From: Clostridiales bacterium
GTDB lineage: Bacteria; Bacillota; Clostridia; Caldicoprobacterales; UBA3941
Length of the DNA: 47,727 nucleotides
NCBI GenBank assembly: GCA_012735575.1
Contig: JAAYGY010000017.1
Location: 1 to 47,727, forward strand
Direction of reading: 5' to 3'
Below are positions 19,439-34,914 of the stretch, in pieces. Position numbers and translations under genes: made by a program. Positions within the stretch are counted from its first letter, which is position 1. Each line of letters opens with the position of its first letter. Under the pieces are notes generated by a model. The model searched no databases. It saw only the letters and a program-made list of their open reading frames with translations, and was not told the origin of the DNA.

Positions 19439-20896
19439 CTAATATCCTAAATCCAGTGCTTTTTTAAAGATTTTACCTGCTAAAGGTGCTGCCATCCTGC
19501 CGCCTGTCTGCCCTTCTGGCAAATCCTCTAATACTACCGCTATAGCAAGTTTAGATTTATTTCCAGGCACAAAGCCAATAAACCAGGCATTGTTTTTAAT
19601 TTCAGATTCACCGTTACTTATCTCAGCTGTACCTGTTTTACCAGCTACCTGCCAGCCCTTTAAGGCAGCAGCTTTTCCAGTGCCTTGATCAACAACGTTT
19701 TTCAACATTTCCTGTATAAGCCTGGCACTCTCCAGGCGCATGGCTTTTCGATAAATATTAGGTTGTAGCTTTACTTGCGCTTTCCCGTTTCTGCCCACTA
19801 CCTCATAGACAAGCTTGGGCTCCATCATTATGCCATCATTGGCTATTGCCGAGGCAATCATGGCCATATGTAGCGGAGTAACTTGCACATCTCCCTGACC
19901 AATAGAAATTAGGGCCAGTTTCTCCTTTGAAACACTACCTTTTAAAGGCAGAGGGCTAGCAGCCAGTTTCAAATCGGGAAAGATAAAATCTTGATTAAAT
20001 CCAAAAGCTTCAGCTGTTTTTAATAGTTTTTCCTTACCCAGTTTTGTTGCTGTATCAACAAAATATCCATTACAAGATACTGTTATTGCCTCTTTTAAAT
20101 TCACCTGTCCATGGGATTCTCCGCCATAACATGATATACCCTGAGAACCTGTTTGAATCTCACCCTGACAATCAAAGATGTTATCTGAAATATGCTCCAG
20201 GTTGTCCAGTGCAGACGCGGCAACAATAACTTTGAAAACAGATCCAGGCATAAAAAGTCCCTCTGTAGCCCTGTTTAATAATATATCCCCCTCTATATTT
20301 TCCAGCCTGTTAGGATTAAAGGTAGGATGACTTACCATAGCCAGTATTTCGCCGGTCTGAGCATTCATAACTACAACGCTACCTTTATTGCTGCCTAGAA
20401 CGTCATCTATATATTGCTGAAGAGCAAGATCTATGGTAAGGTGCAGGGTATTACCCACTTCTGTTGATAAAAATATCTTTTGATAAACCCTTTCATAAAA
20501 TGGATTATTGTATCCCATCAAATATTTAACCTGCAGAGCCTCGACCCCGGATCTACCCCATTGGCTATTGTTAAACCCTACTACATGAGCTATACTCCTG
20601 GCCTGTTCTCCTCCTCCCAGATAACTTCTGTAATAGTATACCTGTTTCTGTTGGGTTTGAGGATTTTGTCTTTTTTCTTTAACAGTAGTAGCCAAAAGCT
20701 TACCGTTACGATCTTTAATGTCTCCTGGAATTACTTTAGGTTCCCACGAATCCAGTCTAACCCTGGGATTATAGGAGTTAGCAAACCATCTATCACTATA
20801 AAAAAACAGGATATAGCAATAATATACTGCAAGCAATATAAAGGCGGCTAATAAAACTACCAGTCCCTTCTTAAGGTTTTTCTCTAGACCTTTCAT
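19439..20896 (-). CDS. Class B penicillin-binding protein (transpeptidase)
   Basis: 485-residue peptidoglycan transpeptidase with one N-terminal membrane anchor (about residues 10-32). The penicillin-binding motifs are intact: SxxK in PGSVFKV near residue 218, SCN (SxN) near 280 and KTGT near 418. The N-terminal module (about 45-165) is short, as in the PbpA/SpoVD-like enzymes of Clostridia, and there are no PASTA domains. The start ATG lies five bases after the stop of the FtsW/RodA gene, with GAAGGAG as ribosome site. The pair should form a glycosyltransferase-transpeptidase complex for elongation, division or sporulation; which one is not decided by sequence. Confidence 0.92.
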   Translation of the reverse strand: MKGLEKNLKKGLVVLLAAFILLAVYYCYILFFYSDRWFANSYNPRVRLDSWEPKVIPGDIKDRNGKLLATTVKEKRQNPQTQQKQVYYYRSYLGGGEQARSIAHVVGFNNSQWGRSGVEALQVKYLMGYNNPFYERVYQKIFLSTEVGNTLHLTIDLALQQYIDDVLGSNKGSVVVMNAQTGEILAMVSHPTFNPNRLENIEGDILLNRATEGLFMPGSVFKVIVAASALDNLEHISDNIFDCQGEIQTGSQGISCYGGESHGQVNLKEAITVSCNGYFVDTATKLGKEKLLKTAEAFGFNQDFIFPDLKLAASPLPLKGSVSKEKLALISIGQGDVQVTPLHMAMIASAIANDGIMMEPKLVYEVVGRNGKAQVKLQPNIYRKAMRLESARLIQEMLKNVVDQGTGKAAALKGWQVAGKTGTAEISNGESEIKNNAWFIGFVPGNKSKLAIAVVLEDLPEGQTGGRMAAPLAGKIFKKALDLGY

Positions 20897-20901
20897 AGAT
20901 T

Positions 20902-22296
20902 CTATACTCCTTCCCCAAAGGCCTGATCTTCTTTATAATCATCCTCTTCAGCCCCATCTTCATTGCTATTATCTGTAGCATCTATGGCTACTCCCTCTAA
21001 GACCCCTACTAGTGCTAATGAAGTAACCATAGAACTACCTCCGTAACTGACAAAGGGCATGGTAACACCTGTTAGGGGGATCATCTTTATAACACCTCCA
21101 ATTATGGTAAATGCTTGGAGGGTTAATGCTACAGTAGCACCAAAAGCAAGTAGTGCCTTATAGGGATCCTTATTTCTTAAAGCAATTGATACTCCCCTGA
21201 TTACAATCATAGCATATAAGCCTATAATACAAAAACCAGAAATAATACCAAATTCTTCACAAATAGTAGCAAATATAAAATCGGTCTTAAAAGCTGGAAC
21301 TACTTGGGGTGATCCCAGCCCTAATCCTGTACCTATAAGACCACCACTGCTTATTGCAATAAGGGAATGTGCTATCTGATACCCTTTATTTTCAATATCT
21401 CTCCAGGGATTTTTCCATGCTTCAACCCTTACTCTAATATGACTAAAAAGATGGTAGCTAGCAACGCTTCCCAGTACAGCGGCACCACCTGCCAGTAAAA
21501 CTATAATCCAATCGGAGGTTGCTATATAGTAAACAAAGATAAAAATGTAAAAATACAAAAGGGCAGCACCCAAATCTCTTTGCAGTACCACAAGTAAAAT
21601 AGCTACACCAGCAAAAATAAAAGCCGGTAAATGCTCCCTAAACTTATTCTCCTCCCTAAACCACGTTGCAAATATAAATATCAAAATAATCTTTACAAAC
21701 TCTGAAGGTTGGAGGCTGTATCCTTTAATTGAAATCCAGTTTTTAGCACCAAAGATCTCTTTCCCAAAAATAATAGGCAACAAAAGGAGGACACAGGCTA
21801 ATCCCATAAGAATATAGCTGAAAATTTCATTCATTCGTATCTTATAAGTAAATAAAATAAAAAATAATAAGGCTACATTTCCTGCAATAAAATATTTCAT
21901 CTGACTTTTTGCCAAATCCGGATTAAATCTATAAAGCATTATAAAACCAAATATAGCTAGAGTATCAACTATTATTAATAGCAGTCTGTCCATCCTGGGA
22001 AAAACCAGCCTAAAAAGATTATATTGAATAATAAAAGCAATACCTGCAATTATCCCTATTAAAGCAGTATATTTATCAAAACCACTTGGGTTTTTATAGG
22101 CCAGTAATGCGTAAGCAGAAGCAAGAAAAATAACCATGAAAAAAATTATATGACCAAAAGGGCCTTCGTCCTCATAATCCTGTTCCTGCCTTGTCCTAAA
22201 TGCCTCCATTAAGATTCTCAATGTAATAAATATTATCAGACCAATAAACCAATATCGCATGGTTAGAGATATTATCTCAAATTTTTTACTGGACAC
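20902..22296 (-). CDS. FtsW/RodA/SpoVE family peptidoglycan glycosyltransferase
   Basis: 464-residue SEDS-family polytopic membrane protein with about ten membrane segments. Typical motifs are LQPSEFVKI, QRDLGAAL, NKGYQIAHSLIAISSGGLIGTGLG and the C-terminal PLTGVTMPFVSYGGSSM signature. SEDS proteins polymerise lipid II with a partner class B PBP, which is the next gene. The last 30 residues are very acidic and cytoplasmic, an addition not general in the family. The start is GTG 22294-22296 with AAAGGA nine bases upstream. FtsW, RodA and SpoVE cannot be separated from sequence alone. Confidence 0.93.
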   Translation of the reverse strand: MSSKKFEIISLTMRYWFIGLIIFITLRILMEAFRTRQEQDYEDEGPFGHIIFFMVIFLASAYALLAYKNPSGFDKYTALIGIIAGIAFIIQYNLFRLVFPRMDRLLLIIVDTLAIFGFIMLYRFNPDLAKSQMKYFIAGNVALLFFILFTYKIRMNEIFSYILMGLACVLLLLPIIFGKEIFGAKNWISIKGYSLQPSEFVKIILIFIFATWFREENKFREHLPAFIFAGVAILLVVLQRDLGAALLYFYIFIFVYYIATSDWIIVLLAGGAAVLGSVASYHLFSHIRVRVEAWKNPWRDIENKGYQIAHSLIAISSGGLIGTGLGLGSPQVVPAFKTDFIFATICEEFGIISGFCIIGLYAMIVIRGVSIALRNKDPYKALLAFGATVALTLQAFTIIGGVIKMIPLTGVTMPFVSYGGSSMVTSLALVGVLEGVAIDATDNSNEDGAEEDDYKEDQAFGEGV

Positions 22297-22463: not shown

Positions 22464-22590
22464 CCATCTAATGCTTATAAATACTAGCTTTAATTGCGAA
22501 TCAGATTATATCATAAATTGTCCTTTTTTAAATAAATAACGATAATTCTGTGAATTTGTGTAAAATTGGGTTCTATTAATGTACAATAAG

Positions 22591-22599
22591 TGCTATAAT
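22591..22599 (+). promoter_or_regulatory. Extended -10 promoter of the receiver gene
   Basis: TGCTATAAT is a perfect extended -10 about 60 bases before the start of the receiver-domain gene. The -35 region is weak. Confidence 0.5.
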
Positions 22600-22658
22600 C
22601 AAGCTAGAGACATCGTTGAAATGTATTTCTTTAGCTTTGCTTGGAAAGGATGAAAGCA

Positions 22659-23057
22659 ATGGTGCTGAAAGTTTTAATGGTAGATAGTAGCTATAATGCC
22701 CGAAGGGATATTGACCGCAAAATCAAATGGGTAGAAAACGATTTTGAACTGGTCGGCGAAGCCAATAACGGCGAGGAGGCCTTGGCCCTTATCCCTCATG
22801 TAAATCCTCATGTTATACTAACAGCCATAAGAATGCCCAAAATGGATGGAATTACCTTTATAGAAACAGCTAAAAAATGTTGGCCAAATATAAAATATGT
22901 TATCGTTAGTAATTATGATAATTTTGACTATCTAAGACAAGCAATGAAGGTAGGTGCTTATGATTATATTCTAAAGCCTGTTAAAGTGGACGAAATAAAT
23001 CAAGTCCTTTTGAGAGCTAAAATAGAAATAGAAACCGGTGTTAGGAAATTCTTCTAG
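22659..23057 (+). CDS. Stand-alone pseudo-receiver domain protein
   Basis: 132 residues forming one response-regulator receiver domain of the YesN type with no output domain. The phosphoacceptor is gone: where relatives read LTDIRMPxMDG this protein reads LTAIRMPKMDG, with codon GCC (Ala). The acidic pair is also altered (VDSS instead of VDDE). The switch Ser (IVSNYDNF) and conserved Lys (YILKP) remain. It therefore probably works without phosphorylation, as an adaptor or a domain-level protein binder. I place the start at ATG 22659, eight bases after AAAGGA; ATG 22650 and TTG 22641 overlap that site. It stands alone on the plus strand, convergent with the cdaA-cdaR operon, with a shared terminator. 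Confidence 0.85.
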   Translation: MVLKVLMVDSSYNARRDIDRKIKWVENDFELVGEANNGEEALALIPHVNPHVILTAIRMPKMDGITFIETAKKCWPNIKYVIVSNYDNFDYLRQAMKVGAYDYILKPVKVDEINQVLLRAKIEIETGVRKFF

Positions 23058-23062
23058 CAAAG

Positions 23063-23105
23063 AAAAGCTGTGGCACTTAAATTTCATAAAGTACCACAGC
23101 TTTTT
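23063..23105. terminator. Bidirectional terminator between the receiver gene and cdaR
   Basis: An 11-bp stem, AAAAGCTGTGG / CCACAGCTTTT, with T-runs on both sides. It can stop transcription from the plus-strand receiver gene and from the minus-strand cdaA-cdaR operon. Confidence 0.8.
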
Positions 23106-23107
23106 GA

Positions 23108-24316
23108 TTATTCTATAATTACCTTTAATTGTTTAGGCTCAATGTTTGTTACTTCCAGGCCAGAAGGGAGGTTTTCTACCTGTACGGGATAGTTTCTCTC
23201 TCCCCTTGATGAGTTTTCTAGATCCATGTATACTCTTAAAATCTGGGGCTTAAGAGCATTGATCAAACTTTGAGGACCACTTACTGTAATGGTCATTTCC
23301 TCTTCTAATTCATCCAGTTTCGCATGTAAGCCCTGCGGTACATTTCGAAGTTCAACTTCCCCAAAGTTGACATCCCTATTGATTATTCTTTCTACTCTCA
23401 CTAAAACCTGGATATGTGAAGGTTCTCCCGGACTTAGGCGAATATCCTCATGTTGCTGTAGTTTTAATTCTTTATTGATATCCCCTGTTGCTCCCTGGAT
23501 ATCCAATACTTCTGTAGTTATGGTATCAGTAGCTGCCAATACCTCTGGCTCTCCACTTATGGTTACTTCTCCTGGCTTTATTTCCTGACCCATTACCACA
23601 AAGCCTTCAGCAGGCTCTCCTGTTATTTGAGGATCAACTCGAACAGTTTTATTGGGATAGACTGTCAAAACACAGTATTCCGGATTAATGGTTATTAAAT
23701 CAGGCTCTATAATCTCATCCTCTTCATTAAATAGCTCAACCATTAAAGATCGGTCTATCCTTCTATCTTTTACACCCAAGGATACAGATATTTGAGCATA
23801 GGCAGCGGTGCTAATTAGGGATTCAGGTCCCCTAACTTCTACAAACCTGGGATTTATTTCGTAATACCTCTTGCCAAACTCCACACTGTCCTTTTCTGCC
23901 ACCTTAGGTATTACTGGTACTGTTTTTGATACTATTCTCTCCACATTTATATCTATATCCGGTAGTGACTTTATTTCAATATTACTAGGCAAACCACTTA
24001 TTTCAACACTAACCCTTTGCTCTCCTGTCTTATTGACCTCTGACAGATCAACTATAGCAATAATTTTGCTTTTATCTATATATCTAACCATGCTTGACTT
24101 AGCTTTGATATCAAAACTATAGGTATCAGGCATATCCGATGATATCATTAAGCCATTTTCTGAGAGTTTTTGTTCATTCTCTATCCTAATGGGAATGTCC
24201 CGAAAGCTCATATCTCTTAATGGATCACGATTACTGGGTGTCATACTCCATAATATAAGTGCAATCACTATAGAAATAACTTTTAGAGTTATGTTTCTTT
24301 CAAAAAACCTAGTCAT
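23108..24316 (-). CDS. cdaR: CdaA regulatory protein CdaR (YbbR domains)
   Basis: 402-residue extracytoplasmic protein with one N-terminal membrane helix (about residues 9-25) and four YbbR repeats over residues 40-400. Each repeat ends with a pattern like VxVxGP or VxIxGxP (VRGPESLI, TISGEPEVL, TVSGPQSLI). In Bacillus and Listeria CdaR binds the membrane diadenylate cyclase CdaA and tunes c-di-AMP synthesis. The ATG overlaps the end of cdaA by eight bases, with GGAGG inside the cdaA coding end, so the pair is translationally coupled. Confidence 0.93.
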   Translation of the reverse strand: MTRFFERNITLKVISIVIALILWSMTPSNRDPLRDMSFRDIPIRIENEQKLSENGLMISSDMPDTYSFDIKAKSSMVRYIDKSKIIAIVDLSEVNKTGEQRVSVEISGLPSNIEIKSLPDIDINVERIVSKTVPVIPKVAEKDSVEFGKRYYEINPRFVEVRGPESLISTAAYAQISVSLGVKDRRIDRSLMVELFNEEDEIIEPDLITINPEYCVLTVYPNKTVRVDPQITGEPAEGFVVMGQEIKPGEVTISGEPEVLAATDTITTEVLDIQGATGDINKELKLQQHEDIRLSPGEPSHIQVLVRVERIINRDVNFGEVELRNVPQGLHAKLDELEEEMTITVSGPQSLINALKPQILRVYMDLENSSRGERNYPVQVENLPSGLEVTNIEPKQLKVIIE

Positions 24317-25166
24317 TTTTGGACCTCCTTTTTATAAAACTTAAAGGTCCAACATCATTTTCCTTATAATATATAGACCTGAGGACACTTTTTAGGCCAT
24401 CCATATCTAAATAACGGGTAAGCTTGCCATTTTGAGCCATTGATATAACCCCAGTCTCCTCAGACACAATTATAGCTAGGGCATCAGAACTTTCTGTTAT
24501 TCCCAAAGCCGCACGATGCCTTGTCCCTAATTGCTTGCTGAGATTAGGGTTTTCTGTAAGGGGCAGAAAACAACCAGCTGCAGCTATCCTCTCACCACGA
24601 ATGACTACAGCACCATCATGCAAAGGGGTGTTGGGAATAAATATATTTTCTAAAAGCTCCCTAGTTAACCTTGCATCCAGTTTAACCCCTGTTTCTATAA
24701 TTTCATTAATACCTGTCTGCTTTTCTACTACTATTAAAGCACCGGTTCTTGTTTTAGACATATTGGCGACAGCATCAGCTATCCCATTTACAATACTCTG
24801 GGTATCTTTTTCTCTATCATCCCCCAATAACAGGCTTCTCTCAAAGAACCGGCCCCTTCCGATCTGCTCCAATGCTCTCCTGATCTCAGGAAGGAAAACA
24901 ATAACCACAGCAGTAATACCAAAATTAATGGTATTTTCTAAAATCCAGGCTATTGTATTAAGTTTTAAGCCTTTGGTAACAAAATATATGAAAAAAAGAA
25001 AAACGACACCCTTTAGTACCTGTTCAGCTCTTGTCTTTCTAATTAATAAAAGGAGCTGGTATAATACGAAGGCGACAACAGTAATATCTACAATATGTCG
25101 AATAATATCTGGAAACTGCAAATAAGGCTCCAACCGCTGAAGCAGATCAGAGATCACGGCCCACAT
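24309..25166 (-). CDS. cdaA: Diadenylate cyclase CdaA
   Basis: Makes cyclic di-AMP from two ATP. Three membrane helices fill the first 90 or so residues. The DAC catalytic domain follows with the DGA motif (PLHDGAVVIRGERI) and the RHR motif (GTRHRAALGITE), both intact. 285 residues, close to Bacillus CdaA. ATG is behind GGGGGTGG. Its cyclase activity in this family affects potassium and osmolyte balance and cell-wall homeostasis. Usually cdaA-cdaR is followed by glmM; here the operon ends after cdaR. Confidence 0.96.
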   Translation of the reverse strand: MWAVISDLLQRLEPYLQFPDIIRHIVDITVVAFVLYQLLLLIRKTRAEQVLKGVVFLFFIYFVTKGLKLNTIAWILENTINFGITAVVIVFLPEIRRALEQIGRGRFFERSLLLGDDREKDTQSIVNGIADAVANMSKTRTGALIVVEKQTGINEIIETGVKLDARLTRELLENIFIPNTPLHDGAVVIRGERIAAAGCFLPLTENPNLSKQLGTRHRAALGITESSDALAIIVSEETGVISMAQNGKLTRYLDMDGLKSVLRSIYYKENDVGPLSFIKRRSKND

Positions 25167-26204: not shown

Positions 26205-26244
26205 TTTAAAAAAGTTAAAGGAACTGCAATACTAAGCAGTTCCT
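26205..26244 (-). terminator. Terminator overlapping the glucan synthase stop codon
   Basis: Minus strand: perfect nine-base stem AGGAACTGC / GCAGTTCCT, loop of eight bases containing the TAG stop, then TTAACTTTTTT. The upstream arm is coding sequence. The remainder of 25989-26204 holds a short inverted repeat (AGGGCTTGCCCT) but no gene. Confidence 0.75.
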
Positions 26245-29200
26245 AAAATCACCCTTACGCTATGCTCACCTTCTCTATCTGACAAGGATATGAATTTTTC
26301 ATCAAGTTTTTCATCATCTAGCCATATTTCTTTAACCCCTTTATTAACCCTGTCTGGGTTTTCTATTCTAATTCTATAGGTAGCATTTTTGTGCCTATAG
26401 ATCATATCAAAACCTTCCCAATGTGAAGGAATACAGGGATCTATATAGAGCTTATCTCCTCTCAGCTTTAAGCCTATAATCCACTCTACAGCAACCCTAT
26501 ACATCCAGGCTGCTGAACCAGTATACCAGGTCCAGCCCCCTCGACCTACATGGGGCTCTACTGTATATACATCGGCTGCCATGACATAAGGTTCAACCTT
26601 GTACCTATTTATCTCAATCCAGGTTCGTCCATGGTTAATTGGATTGATCATATGATATAGCTCCCATGCTTTATTCCCATCACCAAGCATTGCATTAGCC
26701 AGTATGGTCCATACTGCGCCATGGGTATATTGACCACCGTTTTCCCTAACACCTGGCACATATCCCTTGATATAGCCAGGCTCTAAGGATGAACTGTAAA
26801 AAGGTGGTGCTAACAGCTGTATTAGTCCTTCATCTCTTCGTACTAGGTGCCTTTCCATGGCTTCCATAGCAATCTTTGCCCGAGAGGGATTGGCAGCTCC
26901 CGATATCACAGCCCAGGATTGGGAAATAGCATCAATTCGGCATTCTTCATTTAATTCAGAACCAAGGGGCGTTCCATCATCGAAATATGCCCTACGGTAC
27001 CATCCACCATCCCAACCGTTTTTATCTATAGCATCCTTTAATTTCTCAGCTACATCTTTATACTTCTCTGCTCTTTCCTTATCATTGCGATGCTGGCAGA
27101 TTGGTATAAACTTATCCAGGACAGTGTACAAAAACCATCCAAGCCATACACTCTCTCCACGGCCTTTAATCCCTACCTTATCCATGCCATCATTCCAGTC
27201 GCCGCCTCCCATTAGTGGTAACCCATGTTCACCAAAAGATAAGGATTTTTCAATAGCTCTTATACAATGGTCATAGATGCTATCCTTTTCCTTTGATATT
27301 GCTGGCTCATTATATCTGTCATCTTCATCTTGACTTAAAGGTTCATCTACCAGATAGTGAGTTTTCTCATCTAATATACCCCAATCTCCTGTACCCTCTA
27401 TATAATTTGCAGTTACATATGGCAGGAATAGGAGATCATCAGTGATTCTTGTCCTAATTCCCCTGTATGGAGGATGCCACCAGTGCTGTACATCGCCTTG
27501 AGTAAACTGATGCTGGCTGCTAAGAAGAATCTGTTCCTTCATCATTATTGAATTGCTATAAATTAAAGCCAATACATCCTGTAACTGGTCACGGAATCCG
27601 TAAGCGCCTCCAGCCTGGTAAAAACCTGTCCTCGCTAAAAGCCTGCTGCTAAGAGTTTGGTATAGCAACCACCTATTTAACATAATATTCATGGACTCAT
27701 CAGGTGTTTTTACCTTAACGGCACTTAATCTTTCTTCCCAAATATTTTTAGACTCTTCCAGTACATGGCGGGCCGCTTCAGCATTAGCATATTTTCTTAT
27801 AATCTCCCTAGCCTCTTCAGCGCTGTTACCCTGCCCTAGTACAAAGATTACCTCTTCTTGTTTGCCTGGTTCTATATCTACCGTTACTTGTATAGCACCA
27901 CAGGGATCAAAACCGGCACCTACCCTATTGGATAAGCCTTCTCTTTTTAGGGCTAAGGGGTTGCTAATAGAACCATTTCTTCCAATGAATTCAGTTCTGT
28001 CGCCTGTAATGCCCACATAGGGCCTGTCGCTGGCTATAAAAGCTACTTTTTCTGCAAACTGTTCATTATAAGGATTAACTGCAAAGATAGCATTAACTTC
28101 TCTATCTTCCATGGTCATTATAAATTGGTTGTTAGGAATAGGATTAACTCCACATACCCAATGAACATAAAGAGTAAGGGAGAGATTTTTTCTTCTATTG
28201 GAATTATTTGAAAGTTGTATATGATAATACTTAACCGGCTTATCTGGGCATACAAACATGGTTTGTTTCTGTTTTAAACCGTTTCTATTGAATTCAAAAA
28301 CAGAATAACCCTGTCCATGGCGTATGGTATATGACCCTTCTGTCCGTATTGGGGATGGCGTAATGGACCAAAGAGCTCCTGTATTCTCATCCCTAATATA
28401 AACCGCCTCTCCAACAGGATCCACAATAGGATCATTAGACCATGGTGTCAGCTTATTTTCTCTACTATTTTCATGCCATGTATATCCTGCACCAGATTCC
28501 GTAACTAAAAATCCAAAGTCCTTATTAGCTACAATATTGCTCCAAGGCATAGGAGTGGTAATATCTTTTGTTAGTTTAATTACATACTCCTTACCATCAA
28601 GACTGAATCCTCCAATATCGTTAAAGAATAAAAGCTCCGATTCCCTCTCTGTTTCATACTCAATTAAATCATCATATTCAGTATAAATCTTAGTTCCGGG
28701 CAAATCTTCATAAGCACCCGGGTTTTCTATCTGGGAAGCTAAAGAACCTCGCTGCCCATCAATAGTTATCCTTGATGCATAAGCCAAAAGATTTTTATCC
28801 TCCTCTGGCATCAAGTTGCCAGCTAAAAGATGTATGCCTCCCGGTTTGCCCTGTAAATCTTTTAAATGACTGATGGTCAGCATCTCCCTAATACGATCCT
28901 GTACAGGCTGTTCATAGCTGTTACCGTATTCATTAAGTATCACCAGATCCACATATATTCCTTTAAGACGCCAATATTCGTGTATGGATAGCATTTGTTT
29001 AACCATTTCTATTTCATCAATAGTACTTACCTTTATTGTAGCTATTGGCAAATCGCCTGAAATACCATATGTCCATAAGCCGCTTTGTGCCTTATGATTC
29101 TTTATGGATTTCAAACTTGCTCTCCTGCCAGGACTTGTATAAATAATTGAGGAAAGCATCTTCTGGTATAAGTTAAGTTCAGATGATGTTAAGTTTAAAT

Positions 29201-32200
29201 ATCTCATTTCCACCTGACTGTGGGTCCAAGCCAGCTCAAAAGCTCTTGATACTACAGCAGTATTCTGATACTCCTTGGCCAGGTTTATGACTTCTTCCCT
29301 GGTTTCTGCAACAGCCACTATATATGATAATTTGGCAGATTCTCCGGCATCTATGCTTAGTCTTTGCCTTAGGCTCATAATGGCATCCAGTACTGCCCCC
29401 GTAGTATTGCTCAAGGGCTGATCTGAATCCATAGCCTTAGGATTGCTAATATCGCGACCCCGTCCAATAAATTTGGATCTGTCGGTCTCATATTGAACAA
29501 TACCTATTGGATCCCCTTCTACAACTAGGGTATGCGCCAACCACATTCGCTTTTGTTCTTTGCTTCTAGGCCGTCTAGTCATAAGCAATATATTATAATG
29601 TTCAATATACTCCGTTTCCACAAAAAGATTGACAAAGGCTGGATGAGCTATATCATCCCCTTGTGCTGCCAATATGGGTTCAAAATAGCTAGTCACCTCT
29701 AATACCCTATTATGCTTACTATGGTTACTAAGGGATATCTTTCGAATCTCCACATTATGCTCTGGAGATACTACCACCTCAGTCCTGGTTTCTATATTAC
29801 CATCCTTTCGATTGAATATGGCCTTGTCAGGTTCGAAGATAACTTCATATTTTTCACCCTCATCAAGACAAGGCTGATAGGTAGAAGACCAATAGTGATT
29901 GGAGTTTAGATTCTTTATATAGAAAAATATTCCCCAATTATCTCTGGTTACATCCTCTCGCCAGCGATTGATTCCCAAACCTTGGAATTGACTAAATCCA
30001 CCTCCACTATTGGTAATAACGGTAGTATATTGGTTGTTTGATAAAATACATACCTCAGGTATAGGTGTATGAGCCGTATTTATAATGTTCCTTGAATAAA
30101 TTTCCTGATAGGCTTTCTTTTCCGTTTCTATATCCTTTACATCAGACTCATTCTTGTAGTCTTTGATTATAATTTCTCTCTGAGGAATTCTCTCCTGTAA
30201 CAATAACTCCGTAGCCTTTATCATGGGTATGCTATGGAAGCGCTCCTGTATAATATTTTTGTTTAAATAATTATTTAGAGCTAAAAAGATCATACCCTGA
30301 TGGTGAATCATATAGGTTTTGACAATCATACTTTTCTTTCTATGTGGAACCCTCTCAGGAGTATAGTCTATAGATTCATACATACCGTATTCTCCACACA
30401 TGCCCTCTGCTATAAGATGCTCAATATTTTTCATAGTTGCCAAGGGATCAATTCCCAATGCCATAATGGAGGCATAGGGGGATACTACAATATCTTTAAT
30501 TAATCCAGACTTAAGTCCTAATTTAGGTACTCCAAAGGCTTTGTATTGATAATTTAGCTGGAGATCAAAAGCATAAAAGGCAGACTCGGAAACTCCCCAG
30601 GGAACATGCCTTTGGTCGCCATATTGTCGTTGCCCCTTTACCACTGTTTGATATGTTTCATCCCAAAGAGTATTTTTATAGTTTTTCATTATCAATAGGG
30701 GCATTAAATACTCAAACATGGTTCCACCCCAGGATAATAAGCTTCGGGAATCACCCACCAAGGTCAATGAGCGTGCCAATTTAAACCAATGTTTCTGGGG
30801 AATATCCCCTTTGGCAATGGCTATAAAACTAGTCTGCCGTGCTTCAGAAGCTAATAGATCATAATAGACATCCTGCAATTTTTCTGCCTCAATATCATAT
30901 CCTATGGAGAATAACTCCTTCTTTTCATCATACAGGACGCTAAAATCCATGTTATTAAAAATCTCATCTATTCTATCTGTTAATTTTTTGCATATTGCAG
31001 CAATTTTCCTTGCTGCAATATGGGACTCACCTAAAGCAATCTCTAACTGCCTTAACCAATTTGTTATTTGTCTTGACTCTTTTTCTGAGTCCTTAGCCTG
31101 GCGTATAGATGATATAACCTTTGATAGATTATCCAAAATATCATGATAATCATCTAATATTCTCATAATAGAAAAATTCTTATTTAAACTATCCACAAGC
31201 CGCTCAAAGTTTTTCTTTACTTCTTCAGACAGACCATTTTGGCCGCGAATGCTTCTGGGAGGCTCCAAAAGCAGATCTACCCAAGGAGCCAACTCATCAA
31301 TTTCTTTTTTAAAGTCATCTATTTGTTTATCAGTATAATCACCTATGCTTCCCAGTTGGTTTAATGTAAGTTTCCATTCCGTTAAAGCAATCTCTTCGTT
31401 TGCCTCTAGCATACTTATAATTGACGGTATTGAATTGCCATTTTTCTCAAAATCCAGTTTGATGGTATCCTTAAGTCCTAAAATCATCTCCTGACCTATT
31501 AAAGGTCTTGACAACAATTCTTCAATGCCTTGCTTTATCAAAACCAAGTAGCAAGCCAAATTTCCACTGTCAACAGATGAAACATACCTGGGCCTTAAAG
31601 GCTCCAGGGTGCGAGTATCATACCAGTTGAAAAAGTGACCCTTCCATTTTTCCAGTTTCTCTAGAGTATCAAAAGTTTTTTTAAATCTATGCAGCACCTG
31701 ACTGGTACTTATATAACCCAAATCCCTAGCTGAAAGTATAGAAACCAATGCCATACCCATATTGGTAGGAGAGGTTCTATGAGCCAATCCTACATAAGGT
31801 TCTTCTTGATAATTATCAGGTGGCAACCAATTATCTTCACCCTTTATAAATTCATCAAAGTATTTCCATGTTTTCCTACTTATCATACGAAGCTTTTCTA
31901 TTTGCTCCTTGGATAACTCAGGTATTTGCCTATCCTTAGGTTGACTTATTCTATAGGCTATCAAAGGGGATAATAGCCATGTAATGGAAATTGCCAAAGG
32001 TATAAACGGGACATATTTTCTAATGAACACCACCCAAAAGAAGAAGGCCACCGAAACAATCATAGCTGGCAACATCTTTCTCCAGTAGTCCCCTAGTGTT
32101 CCTTTGAACTTCCTATCAGCATCAGCAGCCGTTACCCATTCCAGCATATTCTGTCTAGTGAAAAACACTCTAATAAGGGTCCGTACTATGGCATCTGTCA

Positions 32201-34814
32201 TCAGAAAAGCCTGATGGGCAAGAAAGACAAAAGTCAGGATGATCTGCATGGCCAAGTTTTTAGTGCCATACAGTATATCCACCAGAGAACGATTATGAGC
32301 CCCCATTCTCCCAATAAAAGTCCCTACTACATCCATAAGTAATGGCATGGTTAATGTAACAACAAATAATCCCAGCCAAAACCAGTCAGACCCAGGCAGT
32401 ACTGTTAAGCCTAGAGTTAACAAGAGAAAAAGAGACGGTGAAAGTAAACTCCTTCGCATATTATCAAAAATCTTCCACTTAGAGATTGCAGTCAAAGGAT
32501 TCTTAACTTTATCTTTTTTTCGATTTGTTACACTGGAAAACAACCATGGAATAAGCTGCCAATCTCCTCTAACCCATCTATGCAGCCTCATAGAATAAGA
32601 AATATAGTTAGCCGGATACCCATCTATAAGTTCAATATCTGTTACCAACCCGGCTCTAATATATGAACCTTCCAGTAGATCATGGCTTAATATAGTATTT
32701 TCAGGGATTGCATCCTTTAACACATCATTAAATACATCAACTTCATAAGCACCTTTTCCAGTAAAAATGCCCTCACAAAATAGATCCTGGTAAACATCGG
32801 AAACTGCAGTTGTATAAGGATCTAAACCAGTTTGCCCTGAAAAGGTAAGAGCAAAGGATGATCGGCTTGCGCTGTCAACTGCAATACCAATTCTAGGCTG
32901 TAATATTCCATAACCTTTTACCACCCTATCAAGAGACTTGTCCACTACAGGCCGGTTAAGGGGGTGGGCTAAGGCACCTATTAGCCTTTTGGCTGCATCT
33001 CTAGGAAGATGAGTGTCAGCATCTAAAGTAATGACAAATTTTATCTTTGGTAGTATAGACAAATCTCCTATTTTTGTAGTAAAACCCGTATTCTCATCGC
33101 CTCTAAGAAGACTGGTGAACTCTACAAGAGCACCCCTTTTTCGCTCCCATCCCATCCAGGATTTCTGTGCAGCGTTCCATTGCCTATTTCGATGGAAAAA
33201 GTAAAAAATACATTCTCCATTGCCTTGGTATCTTTGATTTAACTCATTAACAGCCTTAGTGGCTGCATTTATTATAGCTTTATCCTCAGGCTCCTTTTCT
33301 TTGTTTGAGTCTTTAAAATCCCCCAGTAAAGCAAAATGGATATTCTCTCCTTGGTTTGCCAGATAAAATACTTCCATTTGTTCTATTAGTTCCCATACCC
33401 TGTCTTCACTGGATAAAAGAGTAGGAATAACCACCATAGTACGATATTCCTCTGGTATCCCATCTTCTAATTCTAGTTTTGGCAAATAACAAGGCGATAT
33501 AATTCTAGGAATTATCCAATGTATCAATCCTACTGCTAAAGTAACAACGGGAATAAAGAGAATTAGCCCTGAAAGTAACAGTATCAATGGATTCTGTTCA
33601 GTGTCTATTCTATATAAATAATTTAGCGCAATACCTAAGGTCACAAGGATAATCAAACCTATTGACCCAAAATAAAAGGCTTCTGGATGATCTTTAAGCC
33701 ATCCATCCCTTTGATTCTTATCTCCTAACTTAGCTTTTAGTTCATTTCTTCCTTCATCGACTATATAATATCCTACATGACCTTTTCTGATATTGTCACT
33801 GGATGAATCTTTTGTTTTTTTGGCACACTCAATGGCTATTTTTGCTACATCAAGTTCACTAACCTTATACTTATTAGCTAGCTTAACAAGTTCATTTCTA
33901 TAGTATTCACGGGAAACAAATTCCATTTTAGCATAAAAACCTGAGGGGTCTTCCCTTAAAATCTTTTCCAAAAAACTTAGATTTTCGAAAATATCCTCCC
34001 ATTTGACAGATTGAAGAAACCTTAGACTCGTTATGGCATTTCCTATAGAAACTTGATATTTAGCCTGAGTCTGATGCTCAAGCTGCACCATATCATCTAT
34101 ATTTATCCCTTGAAGAGCAAGCTTTCCATCTAACCAGGTTACCAGGGAAGTCCCTTTGCTCCCACTGTTGCGGAAAACTCGCAGCATAGCTTCTGCATAG
34201 GAGGAAGACATATAGCTATTAATCTTGTCATGTTCCATAATTAGCTGATGCAATTTTTCTTTGGGAGCATCTATGTTTTCTAATAGCAAAGAACCCCATT
34301 TATTCCCCTCATTCTTTTGTTTTTGAAGTTCAACTATATGTACTGCAATTTCCCTTATTTTTTTTATTAAAGCTATTTTAATCATTAATGGTACTATCCA
34401 CAGCTCGCCACTGGTTAAAGGGGTAACGGACTGATATTCCCTTAAATATTCTATAAGTATATCCTCATCTAGTTGTCCATCGGTATAATCAACAATATCT
34501 TCAGCAATAGCATAAATACGTGGTATCCCAGATTCTAGTACGGGATATTCTCTCAGATTATCAGGTAGCTGATGTTGGATTTGCTTGGATTGCTCTTCTA
34601 ACATATAAAAGTTGTCCAATAACCATTCCGCCGAAGATATAACCCTTTTATAGGACTTAACCTGTTCATTTATTTTTTTATAAGCTTCAAGCAGTAATCT
34701 GCTATCTTGTTCAATATTGGCAAAATCTCGACTTATTGATTTTTTATGTCCTGTTATTTTATGTTTATTAGCTAAATTTTTTACACGAGAAATAAGATCT
34801 TCTTGTTTTTTCAT
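26232..34814 (-). CDS. Cyclic beta-1,2-glucan synthase (GT84-GH189-GH94)
   Basis: Giant 2860-residue membrane enzyme, matching the length of Brucella Cgs and Agrobacterium ChvB. After a helical N-terminal region and two membrane helices (about 378-440) comes a family 84 glycosyltransferase with VITLDADTHLPRD near 600 and LHRWVRGDWQL near 745. Further membrane helices follow (about 790-955). The next part (about 990-1570, with GLAHRTSPTNMGMALVS and YASIMALGIDPLATM) matches the cyclising transglycosylase region. The C-terminal half (about 1590-2860) is a GH94 phosphorylase-like module with GGGDWNDGMDKVG near 2535, thought to trim chain length. UDP-glucose is the expected donor. The ATG at 34812-34814 has a GGAAGG/GGGGTGG ribosome site; the earlier ATG at 34907 has none. 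No glucan exporter gene is nearby. Thermoanaerobacter has such an enzyme, so occurrence in Clostridia is known. Confidence 0.92.
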   Translation of the reverse strand: MKKQEDLISRVKNLANKHKITGHKKSISRDFANIEQDSRLLLEAYKKINEQVKSYKRVISSAEWLLDNFYMLEEQSKQIQHQLPDNLREYPVLESGIPRIYAIAEDIVDYTDGQLDEDILIEYLREYQSVTPLTSGELWIVPLMIKIALIKKIREIAVHIVELQKQKNEGNKWGSLLLENIDAPKEKLHQLIMEHDKINSYMSSSYAEAMLRVFRNSGSKGTSLVTWLDGKLALQGINIDDMVQLEHQTQAKYQVSIGNAITSLRFLQSVKWEDIFENLSFLEKILREDPSGFYAKMEFVSREYYRNELVKLANKYKVSELDVAKIAIECAKKTKDSSSDNIRKGHVGYYIVDEGRNELKAKLGDKNQRDGWLKDHPEAFYFGSIGLIILVTLGIALNYLYRIDTEQNPLILLLSGLILFIPVVTLAVGLIHWIIPRIISPCYLPKLELEDGIPEEYRTMVVIPTLLSSEDRVWELIEQMEVFYLANQGENIHFALLGDFKDSNKEKEPEDKAIINAATKAVNELNQRYQGNGECIFYFFHRNRQWNAAQKSWMGWERKRGALVEFTSLLRGDENTGFTTKIGDLSILPKIKFVITLDADTHLPRDAAKRLIGALAHPLNRPVVDKSLDRVVKGYGILQPRIGIAVDSASRSSFALTFSGQTGLDPYTTAVSDVYQDLFCEGIFTGKGAYEVDVFNDVLKDAIPENTILSHDLLEGSYIRAGLVTDIELIDGYPANYISYSMRLHRWVRGDWQLIPWLFSSVTNRKKDKVKNPLTAISKWKIFDNMRRSLLSPSLFLLLTLGLTVLPGSDWFWLGLFVVTLTMPLLMDVVGTFIGRMGAHNRSLVDILYGTKNLAMQIILTFVFLAHQAFLMTDAIVRTLIRVFFTRQNMLEWVTAADADRKFKGTLGDYWRKMLPAMIVSVAFFFWVVFIRKYVPFIPLAISITWLLSPLIAYRISQPKDRQIPELSKEQIEKLRMISRKTWKYFDEFIKGEDNWLPPDNYQEEPYVGLAHRTSPTNMGMALVSILSARDLGYISTSQVLHRFKKTFDTLEKLEKWKGHFFNWYDTRTLEPLRPRYVSSVDSGNLACYLVLIKQGIEELLSRPLIGQEMILGLKDTIKLDFEKNGNSIPSIISMLEANEEIALTEWKLTLNQLGSIGDYTDKQIDDFKKEIDELAPWVDLLLEPPRSIRGQNGLSEEVKKNFERLVDSLNKNFSIMRILDDYHDILDNLSKVISSIRQAKDSEKESRQITNWLRQLEIALGESHIAARKIAAICKKLTDRIDEIFNNMDFSVLYDEKKELFSIGYDIEAEKLQDVYYDLLASEARQTSFIAIAKGDIPQKHWFKLARSLTLVGDSRSLLSWGGTMFEYLMPLLIMKNYKNTLWDETYQTVVKGQRQYGDQRHVPWGVSESAFYAFDLQLNYQYKAFGVPKLGLKSGLIKDIVVSPYASIMALGIDPLATMKNIEHLIAEGMCGEYGMYESIDYTPERVPHRKKSMIVKTYMIHHQGMIFLALNNYLNKNIIQERFHSIPMIKATELLLQERIPQREIIIKDYKNESDVKDIETEKKAYQEIYSRNIINTAHTPIPEVCILSNNQYTTVITNSGGGFSQFQGLGINRWREDVTRDNWGIFFYIKNLNSNHYWSSTYQPCLDEGEKYEVIFEPDKAIFNRKDGNIETRTEVVVSPEHNVEIRKISLSNHSKHNRVLEVTSYFEPILAAQGDDIAHPAFVNLFVETEYIEHYNILLMTRRPRSKEQKRMWLAHTLVVEGDPIGIVQYETDRSKFIGRGRDISNPKAMDSDQPLSNTTGAVLDAIMSLRQRLSIDAGESAKLSYIVAVAETREEVINLAKEYQNTAVVSRAFELAWTHSQVEMRYLNLTSSELNLYQKMLSSIIYTSPGRRASLKSIKNHKAQSGLWTYGISGDLPIATIKVSTIDEIEMVKQMLSIHEYWRLKGIYVDLVILNEYGNSYEQPVQDRIREMLTISHLKDLQGKPGGIHLLAGNLMPEEDKNLLAYASRITIDGQRGSLASQIENPGAYEDLPGTKIYTEYDDLIEYETERESELLFFNDIGGFSLDGKEYVIKLTKDITTPMPWSNIVANKDFGFLVTESGAGYTWHENSRENKLTPWSNDPIVDPVGEAVYIRDENTGALWSITPSPIRTEGSYTIRHGQGYSVFEFNRNGLKQKQTMFVCPDKPVKYYHIQLSNNSNRRKNLSLTLYVHWVCGVNPIPNNQFIMTMEDREVNAIFAVNPYNEQFAEKVAFIASDRPYVGITGDRTEFIGRNGSISNPLALKREGLSNRVGAGFDPCGAIQVTVDIEPGKQEEVIFVLGQGNSAEEAREIIRKYANAEAARHVLEESKNIWEERLSAVKVKTPDESMNIMLNRWLLYQTLSSRLLARTGFYQAGGAYGFRDQLQDVLALIYSNSIMMKEQILLSSQHQFTQGDVQHWWHPPYRGIRTRITDDLLFLPYVTANYIEGTGDWGILDEKTHYLVDEPLSQDEDDRYNEPAISKEKDSIYDHCIRAIEKSLSFGEHGLPLMGGGDWNDGMDKVGIKGRGESVWLGWFLYTVLDKFIPICQHRNDKERAEKYKDVAEKLKDAIDKNGWDGGWYRRAYFDDGTPLGSELNEECRIDAISQSWAVISGAANPSRAKIAMEAMERHLVRRDEGLIQLLAPPFYSSSLEPGYIKGYVPGVRENGGQYTHGAVWTILANAMLGDGNKAWELYHMINPINHGRTWIEINRYKVEPYVMAADVYTVEPHVGRGGWTWYTGSAAWMYRVAVEWIIGLKLRGDKLYIDPCIPSHWEGFDMIYRHKNATYRIRIENPDRVNKGVKEIWLDDEKLDEKFISLSDREGEHSVRVILGTA

Positions 34815-34914
34815 AGCCTTCCACCCCTTTGCATGGTAAGAATCTACTAAAAAAGAAGTACTTGTCTTATTAAGTATTAACGATTTCAATAATTTGAATA
34901 CATGCAAAGGTTGG

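Follow-up and report, generated by a model that had tools for sequence, protein, structure and literature searches.

The gene at 22659-23057 (plus strand) of contig JAAYGY010000017.1 from Clostridiales bacterium (assembly GCA_012735575.1; the whole stretch of 47,727 nucleotides is referred to as the window) encodes a receiver domain protein in which the canonical phosphoacceptor is missing. This holds for every one of 22 orthologues, the window copy included; the gene codes for no other domain and has its own conserved promoter. The protein is under very strong purifying selection, and the observation is confirmed and goes beyond chance. We give a probability of roughly 0.55 to the reading that it is a single-domain aspartate-less receiver which acts as a constitutive, phosphorylation-independent adaptor for one conserved partner.

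The original prediction described a stand-alone receiver without phosphoacceptor Asp, in which LTAIRMP replaces LTDIRMP and VDSS replaces VDDE. Translation of 22659-23054 gives a 132-residue protein with MVDSS and LTAIRMP, and Response_reg (PF00072) was the only Pfam family matched (74.7 bits, cut-off 30.2), which confirms this description. The protein is a single domain, as neither an output domain nor, specifically, an AraC-type DNA-binding domain was found in the Pfam scan. The orthologues stop at about the same point, except the copy in G010, which runs into unread bases. In the G020 orthologue (locus L141) an in-frame TAA replaces residue 130, giving a slightly early end. Residues are numbered from the start Met of the window protein. 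The gene and its active-site codons are:

22659..23057, plus strand: stand-alone pseudo-receiver gene, 132 amino acids and stop; start backed by the alignment of 22 orthologues and by a Shine-Dalgarno-like GGAAAGG
22683..22688, plus strand: codons of the acid pair, Asp9 kept and Ser10 replacing Asp (from 22 orthologues; Asp in 77 of 77 readable controls)
22824..22826, plus strand: phosphoacceptor codon GCC, Ala56 (20 of the 22 orthologues have Glu here, and all 101 controls Asp)
22908..22913, plus strand: switch Ser84 followed by Asn85 (all 22 orthologues have Ser84; in 71 of 101 controls the residue after the switch is Ala or Gly)
22965..22976, plus strand: Tyr103 through Lys106 (all 22 orthologues have this Tyr and this Lys)

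The control counts, i.e. phosphoacceptor Asp 101/101, second acid Asp 77/77 and Ala or Gly after the switch residue 71/101, come from 106 other loci that were searched, 101 of which yielded a receiver; these were picked by similarity to the query and are hence not a random sample. At the phosphoacceptor position the orthologues carry Glu (20), Ala (2) and never Asp. The acid pair is lost throughout the family, the second position being occupied by Ser (16 orthologues) or Asn (6) in all 22. A small residue usually follows the switch Ser in working receivers (PMC12632262); here this position is Asn in 18, Tyr in two and His in two orthologues, and never Ala or Gly. Asp9, Pro60, Gly64, Ser84, Tyr103 and Lys106 are invariant, in agreement with the prediction that the switch Ser and the Lys are kept. 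A phosphorylatable Asp, as expected of single-domain response regulators, is absent from the window receiver.

It had been proposed that Ala stands in place of Asp and that orthologues with the same Ala should be looked for. The loss of Asp stands, and orthologues with a normal Asp, which had been named as the observation that would speak for recent decay or a sequencing error, did not appear (0/22). The Ala itself was found in one other genome only, the sister genome G001 of the same genus, also as GCC. As this codon is shared by a separate assembly, it is unlikely to stem from a sequencing error. All orthologues fall on a single branch (support 100/99) of a 43-row tree; the stem of this branch measures 0.95 changes per column, and the branches inside it are short. 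The simplest history suggested by the sequences is that Asp changed to Glu and the second acid was lost on the order-wide stem of the family, and that Glu later changed to Ala in the genus of the window only, which corrects the earlier view that Ala replaced Asp directly.

Within the order (Caldicoprobacterales), which consists of anaerobic bacteria, the family is present in 22 of 30 genomes with a single match each at E 1e-40 or better, and the 21 orthologues outside the window genome are 79-94% identical to the window receiver. In five genomes (G011, G021, G024, G025 and G026) cdaR and the RodA gene are neighbours without a receiver between them, and the receiver gene is therefore truly absent there. 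As for the other three of the eight genomes without a match, the contig ends just after cdaR in G004 and inside cdaA in G029, and cdaA was not found in G028. No orthologue outside the order was found in a class sample of 391 genomes, where the next match was 48% identical and lay in a 508-residue frame. Likewise, in a phylum sample of 398 genomes E 1e-35 was passed only by the window genome and this same frame (E 4.5e-36). A mobile origin was also considered and rejected, as plasmid and phage records gave no match at 60% identity or above. The order includes the biogas-reactor metagenome-assembled genome Clostridiales bacterium DTU074. The orthologue of G027 (L146) lacks the aromatic tail and groups with rows of family f2 (99/96), and the genome itself is placed in family f4; transfer, a long branch or assembly mixing are possible reasons.

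Conservation of the receiver was compared with that of other proteins as the median identity between the window genome and genomes of other families. The receiver reaches 85.6% (n=17), which is the level of ribosomal protein S12 (85.5%, n=18), followed by RecA (81.5%, n=20), the receiver part of Spo0A (68.3%, n=15), CdaA (61.8%, n=17), UvrC (59.9%, n=8), the RodA protein (48.2%, n=11) and CdaR (31.6%, n=17). For seven pairs of closer genomes, the ratio of nonsynonymous to synonymous substitution rates (dN/dS) of the receiver was 0.021-0.050, with ordinary dS. This ratio was lower than that of CdaR in 7/7 pairs and lower than that of CdaA in 7/7, although one of the latter differences is narrow (0.029 against 0.031) and another rests on only 68 comparable CdaA codons. 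As dS is not reduced, the constraint acts on the protein and not on the DNA. A constraint on DNA or RNA was rejected for the same reason, and Rfam shows only two tRNAs in the window. High expression as the reason for the frozen sequence was likewise rejected: the median codon adaptation index was 0.690 for the receiver and 0.685 for both cdaA and cdaR, a weak test in which the RpoC, EF-G and S7 frames of the rpsL loci served as reference, since a motif filter for ribosomal frames picked none.

Conservation is distributed across the whole domain. Residues 84-107, from the end of beta4 to just past beta5, have a mean conservation of 0.96 compared with 0.90 elsewhere up to residue 126. The last residue is Phe in 19 of the 20 rows that reach the final column, in a C-terminal tail of low model confidence.

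An AlphaFold2 model built from a 32-sequence alignment has the (beta-alpha)5 receiver fold with a mean pLDDT (predicted local distance difference test) of 95.5, only the last residues being uncertain; the predicted structure thus agrees with the earlier claim that the fold is kept. Among solved structures, the AraT receiver domain from Geobacillus (6swb) comes closest; we take it to be a YesN/AraC-type receiver, and a neighbouring structure match, 3cu5, is annotated as AraC family. The nearest paralogue in the genome of the window has 42% identity and lies inside a 550-residue frame. By sequence comparison the window receiver is nearest to YesN/AraC-type receivers.

The signals and neighbours of the gene are as follows:

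22571..22599, plus strand: promoter, TTCTAT, 17 bases, and -10 TATAAT extended by TGC; from the sequence, kept in orthologues
22643..22649, plus strand: ribosome-binding site GGAAAGG, 9 bases before the start; read from the sequence, similar in orthologues
23062..23105, no strand assigned: terminator hairpin that separates the receiver gene from convergent cdaR and probably works in both directions; from folding
23108..24316, minus strand: cdaR (YbbR-domain protein), convergent neighbour
24309..25166, minus strand: cdaA, diadenylate cyclase
20902..22296, minus strand: FtsW/RodA-type protein, divergent upstream neighbour

A separate promoter and a separate terminator had been predicted for the gene, and both are supported. 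The extended -10 element TGCTATAAT lies at 22591-22599, 17 bases downstream of TTCTAT. In 22 of 22 orthologues the extended -10 TGNTATAAT is found at most 75 bases upstream, against an expectation of 0.22 given how often it occurs in these loci, and it is usually preceded by a TTTYCA-like hexamer at about 17 bases. A simple consensus scan missed this promoter. Folding of the stretch with the hairpin at 23062-23105 gives -19.4 kcal/mol (z -4.75); the hairpin was missed by the terminator scan, presumably owing to its 10-base loop.

The convergent arrangement with cdaA-cdaR, also noted before, is confirmed and is kept in 18/22 genomes with cdaR directly adjacent, but this is synteny and no proof of a link. 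One gene lies between in G013 and G010, and in G008 and G017 only the receiver gene has been inverted, without leaving its site. The upstream neighbours vary among families. Because it has its own promoter and a separating hairpin and has kept its site despite the flips, the gene behaves, as far as its sequence context indicates, as an independent transcription unit that stayed in one place.

Aspartate-less receivers (ALR), or pseudo-receivers (PsR), are an established class, to which about 4-13% of nominal receiver domains belong, the share varying with the definition and the data set used (PMC12632262). According to this 2025 review, how pseudo-receivers are activated or inactivated without phosphorylation is a mystery. 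Like the window family, these are PF00072 domains without phosphoacceptor Asp which usually have lost the second acid and usually have kept the Lys and the Tyr or Ser. Among the replacements Glu is the commonest (26%) and Ala accounts for 9% (PMC4395418). With PF00072, no Asp and a predicted receiver fold, the window family falls within the definition of the class as judged from sequence and model. It differs from the class in being a single domain without output, in its S12-level conservation in the order and in the change from Glu to Ala within the family. The window protein adds to a known class a new member that is restricted to the order and unusually strongly conserved. Publications on the family were not found in literature searches, with subscription journals mostly outside their coverage.

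Several described systems resemble it in part. FrzS of Myxococcus also has Ala at the phosphoacceptor position and a normal receiver fold (PMC4395418), a likeness drawn from its description, and acts through protein binding (PMC12632262). ChxR of Chlamydia has Glu at this position, as do 20 of the 22 orthologues, and its constitutive DNA binding was not lost when this Glu was replaced by Asp or Ala (PMC4395418). This tolerance of Glu to Ala parallels the natural change in the genus of the window; in contrast to the window receiver, ChxR has a DNA-binding domain. AsfR of Actinoplanes is likewise a stand-alone orphan receiver kept in one lineage, but it requires its own Asp, as D72N fails to complement, whereas the window receiver has none (PMC11960193). 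YesN/AraC-type regulators such as AraT of Geobacillus are nearest by sequence and structure, and compared with these both the DNA-binding domain and the Asp are missing. The window family offers a small single-domain case of a pseudo-receiver with natural Glu and Ala versions.

A constitutive adaptor with a constant partner is our preferred reading because the phosphorylation chemistry is lost, the fold and the surface-linking Ser and Tyr are kept, there is no output domain and the sequence is nearly frozen. The receiver would be fixed in a single conformation that probably resembles the 'on' state, at first with Glu and, in the genus of the window, later without it. It may bind its single conserved partner most likely via the alpha4-beta5-alpha5 face, the site of the best-kept stretch, and the conserved aromatic C-terminal tail perhaps helps this binding. 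Its effect would be set by its own amount or by the state of the partner and not by a histidine kinase. From the earlier proposal of a phosphorylation-independent regulator, perhaps an adaptor, what stands is a phosphorylation-independent protein that is selected and undecayed, with Asp in 0/22; that it is a regulator or an adaptor is an inference. Given such strong conservation, a constant partner should be findable by pull-down.

A number of points weigh against the adaptor. A partner was not found, and the codon usage of the receiver does not suggest that it is expressed at an unusually high level. The excess of conservation at residues 84-107 is modest and this region is partly conserved in ordinary YesN receivers too, so that the binding face is a guess. 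Val two residues after the conserved Lys (K+2) is of a residue class that reportedly promotes active shapes of CheY (PMC12632262), but it is common in the control receivers also. A phosphoacceptor Glu can mimic phosphate in some receivers, though often not alone (PMC4395418). Ala in the genus of the window speaks against Glu as the source of activity there, and means that the acidic group is unnecessary for keeping the gene in this genus. Finally, five genomes live without the gene, which makes its role dispensable.

The strongest of the alternatives, which we nevertheless regard as unlikely, is a decoy or heterodimer partner in two-component signalling that docks YesM-type kinases or pairs with YesN-type regulators, dampening or stabilising them. 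Docking or pairing would use the shared face. The nearest relatives are indeed YesN/AraC-type receivers. The five receiver-less genomes have fewer receiver candidates (9-13 against a median of 19, p 0.001) and fewer YesM-type kinases (0-2 against a median of 3.5, p 0.023). These genomes, however, are smaller as well (p 0.029), and kinase counts track genome size (rho 0.66); all of these p values count related genomes and so overstate the evidence. Furthermore, one YesM-type match is found in each of G003, G014, G016 and G027, which have the gene, and two in each of G011, G024 and G026, which do not. The kinase link is weak and confounded with genome size, and a frozen sequence suits one constant partner better than a shifting set of kinases.

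Somewhat less probable again is a role as a core subunit that stays permanently assembled in a complex of the order, with the receiver fold as a structural part, tied to the adjacent c-di-AMP (cyclic di-AMP) and cell-wall genes. If this were true, the series Asp to Glu to Ala would be a natural record of a switch turning into a fixed part. On a par with it we place a ligand-sensing pseudo-receiver, possibly for c-di-AMP, that would control a partner according to whether its ligand is bound. Small-molecule binding is known for the pseudo-receivers ShkA, CikA, KaiA, JadR1 and RedZ (PMC12632262). The convergent position next to cdaR in most genomes would fit, as would several genomes of family f2 in which the RodA gene is farther off and cdaR-cdaA are still adjacent. 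However, the convergent genes have no common transcript, and CdaA is present in all five clearly receiver-less genomes. As CdaA is found with and without the receiver, the adjacency of cdaR is the only sign of a link to c-di-AMP.

Control by covalent modification of another residue (Ser, Thr, Tyr or Lys), for which GlnR is a reported precedent (PMC12632262), appears improbable: several such residues are invariant in the orthologues, but any frozen protein would be expected to show this. Recent decay towards a pseudogene or an assembly error, suggested by the missing active-site residues and the early stop at residue 130 in G020, can be dismissed, as the 22 orthologues are intact or nearly so with 79-94% identity to the window and dN/dS of 0.02-0.05, and two assemblies share the GCC codon of Ala56. 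A flagellar or CheY-like link is not supported either, since the receiver occurs without FlhA in G014 and G019 and FlhA without the receiver in G011 and G021, all judged on draft assemblies.

Some further features of these loci were recorded. In family f4 a small protein of about 100-112 residues is encoded between cdaR and the RodA gene, whether the receiver is present or not. Copies are at L156 6755-7051 (minus strand) and near the receiver in G008, G014, G017 and G027, their sameness being judged by eye; the L156 copy has just a sub-threshold Pfam match. At 19439-22296 of the window (minus strand) the FtsW/RodA-type protein adjoins a class B penicillin-binding protein. Both score below the curated cut-offs of the FtsW, RodA, SpoVE, PBP2 and SpoVD models, and they may be an extra pair.

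At least two matches to the Spo0A family were found in 26 of the 30 genomes of the order, some of them fragments, and many genomes have two full-length copies above the curated cut-off. Additionally, a 2891-residue frame with GH94 and glucoamylase-type domains lies at 26232-34907 of the window (minus strand), adjoining cwlD. By domain content it presumably resembles cyclic beta-glucan synthases, and it is syntenic in many relatives.
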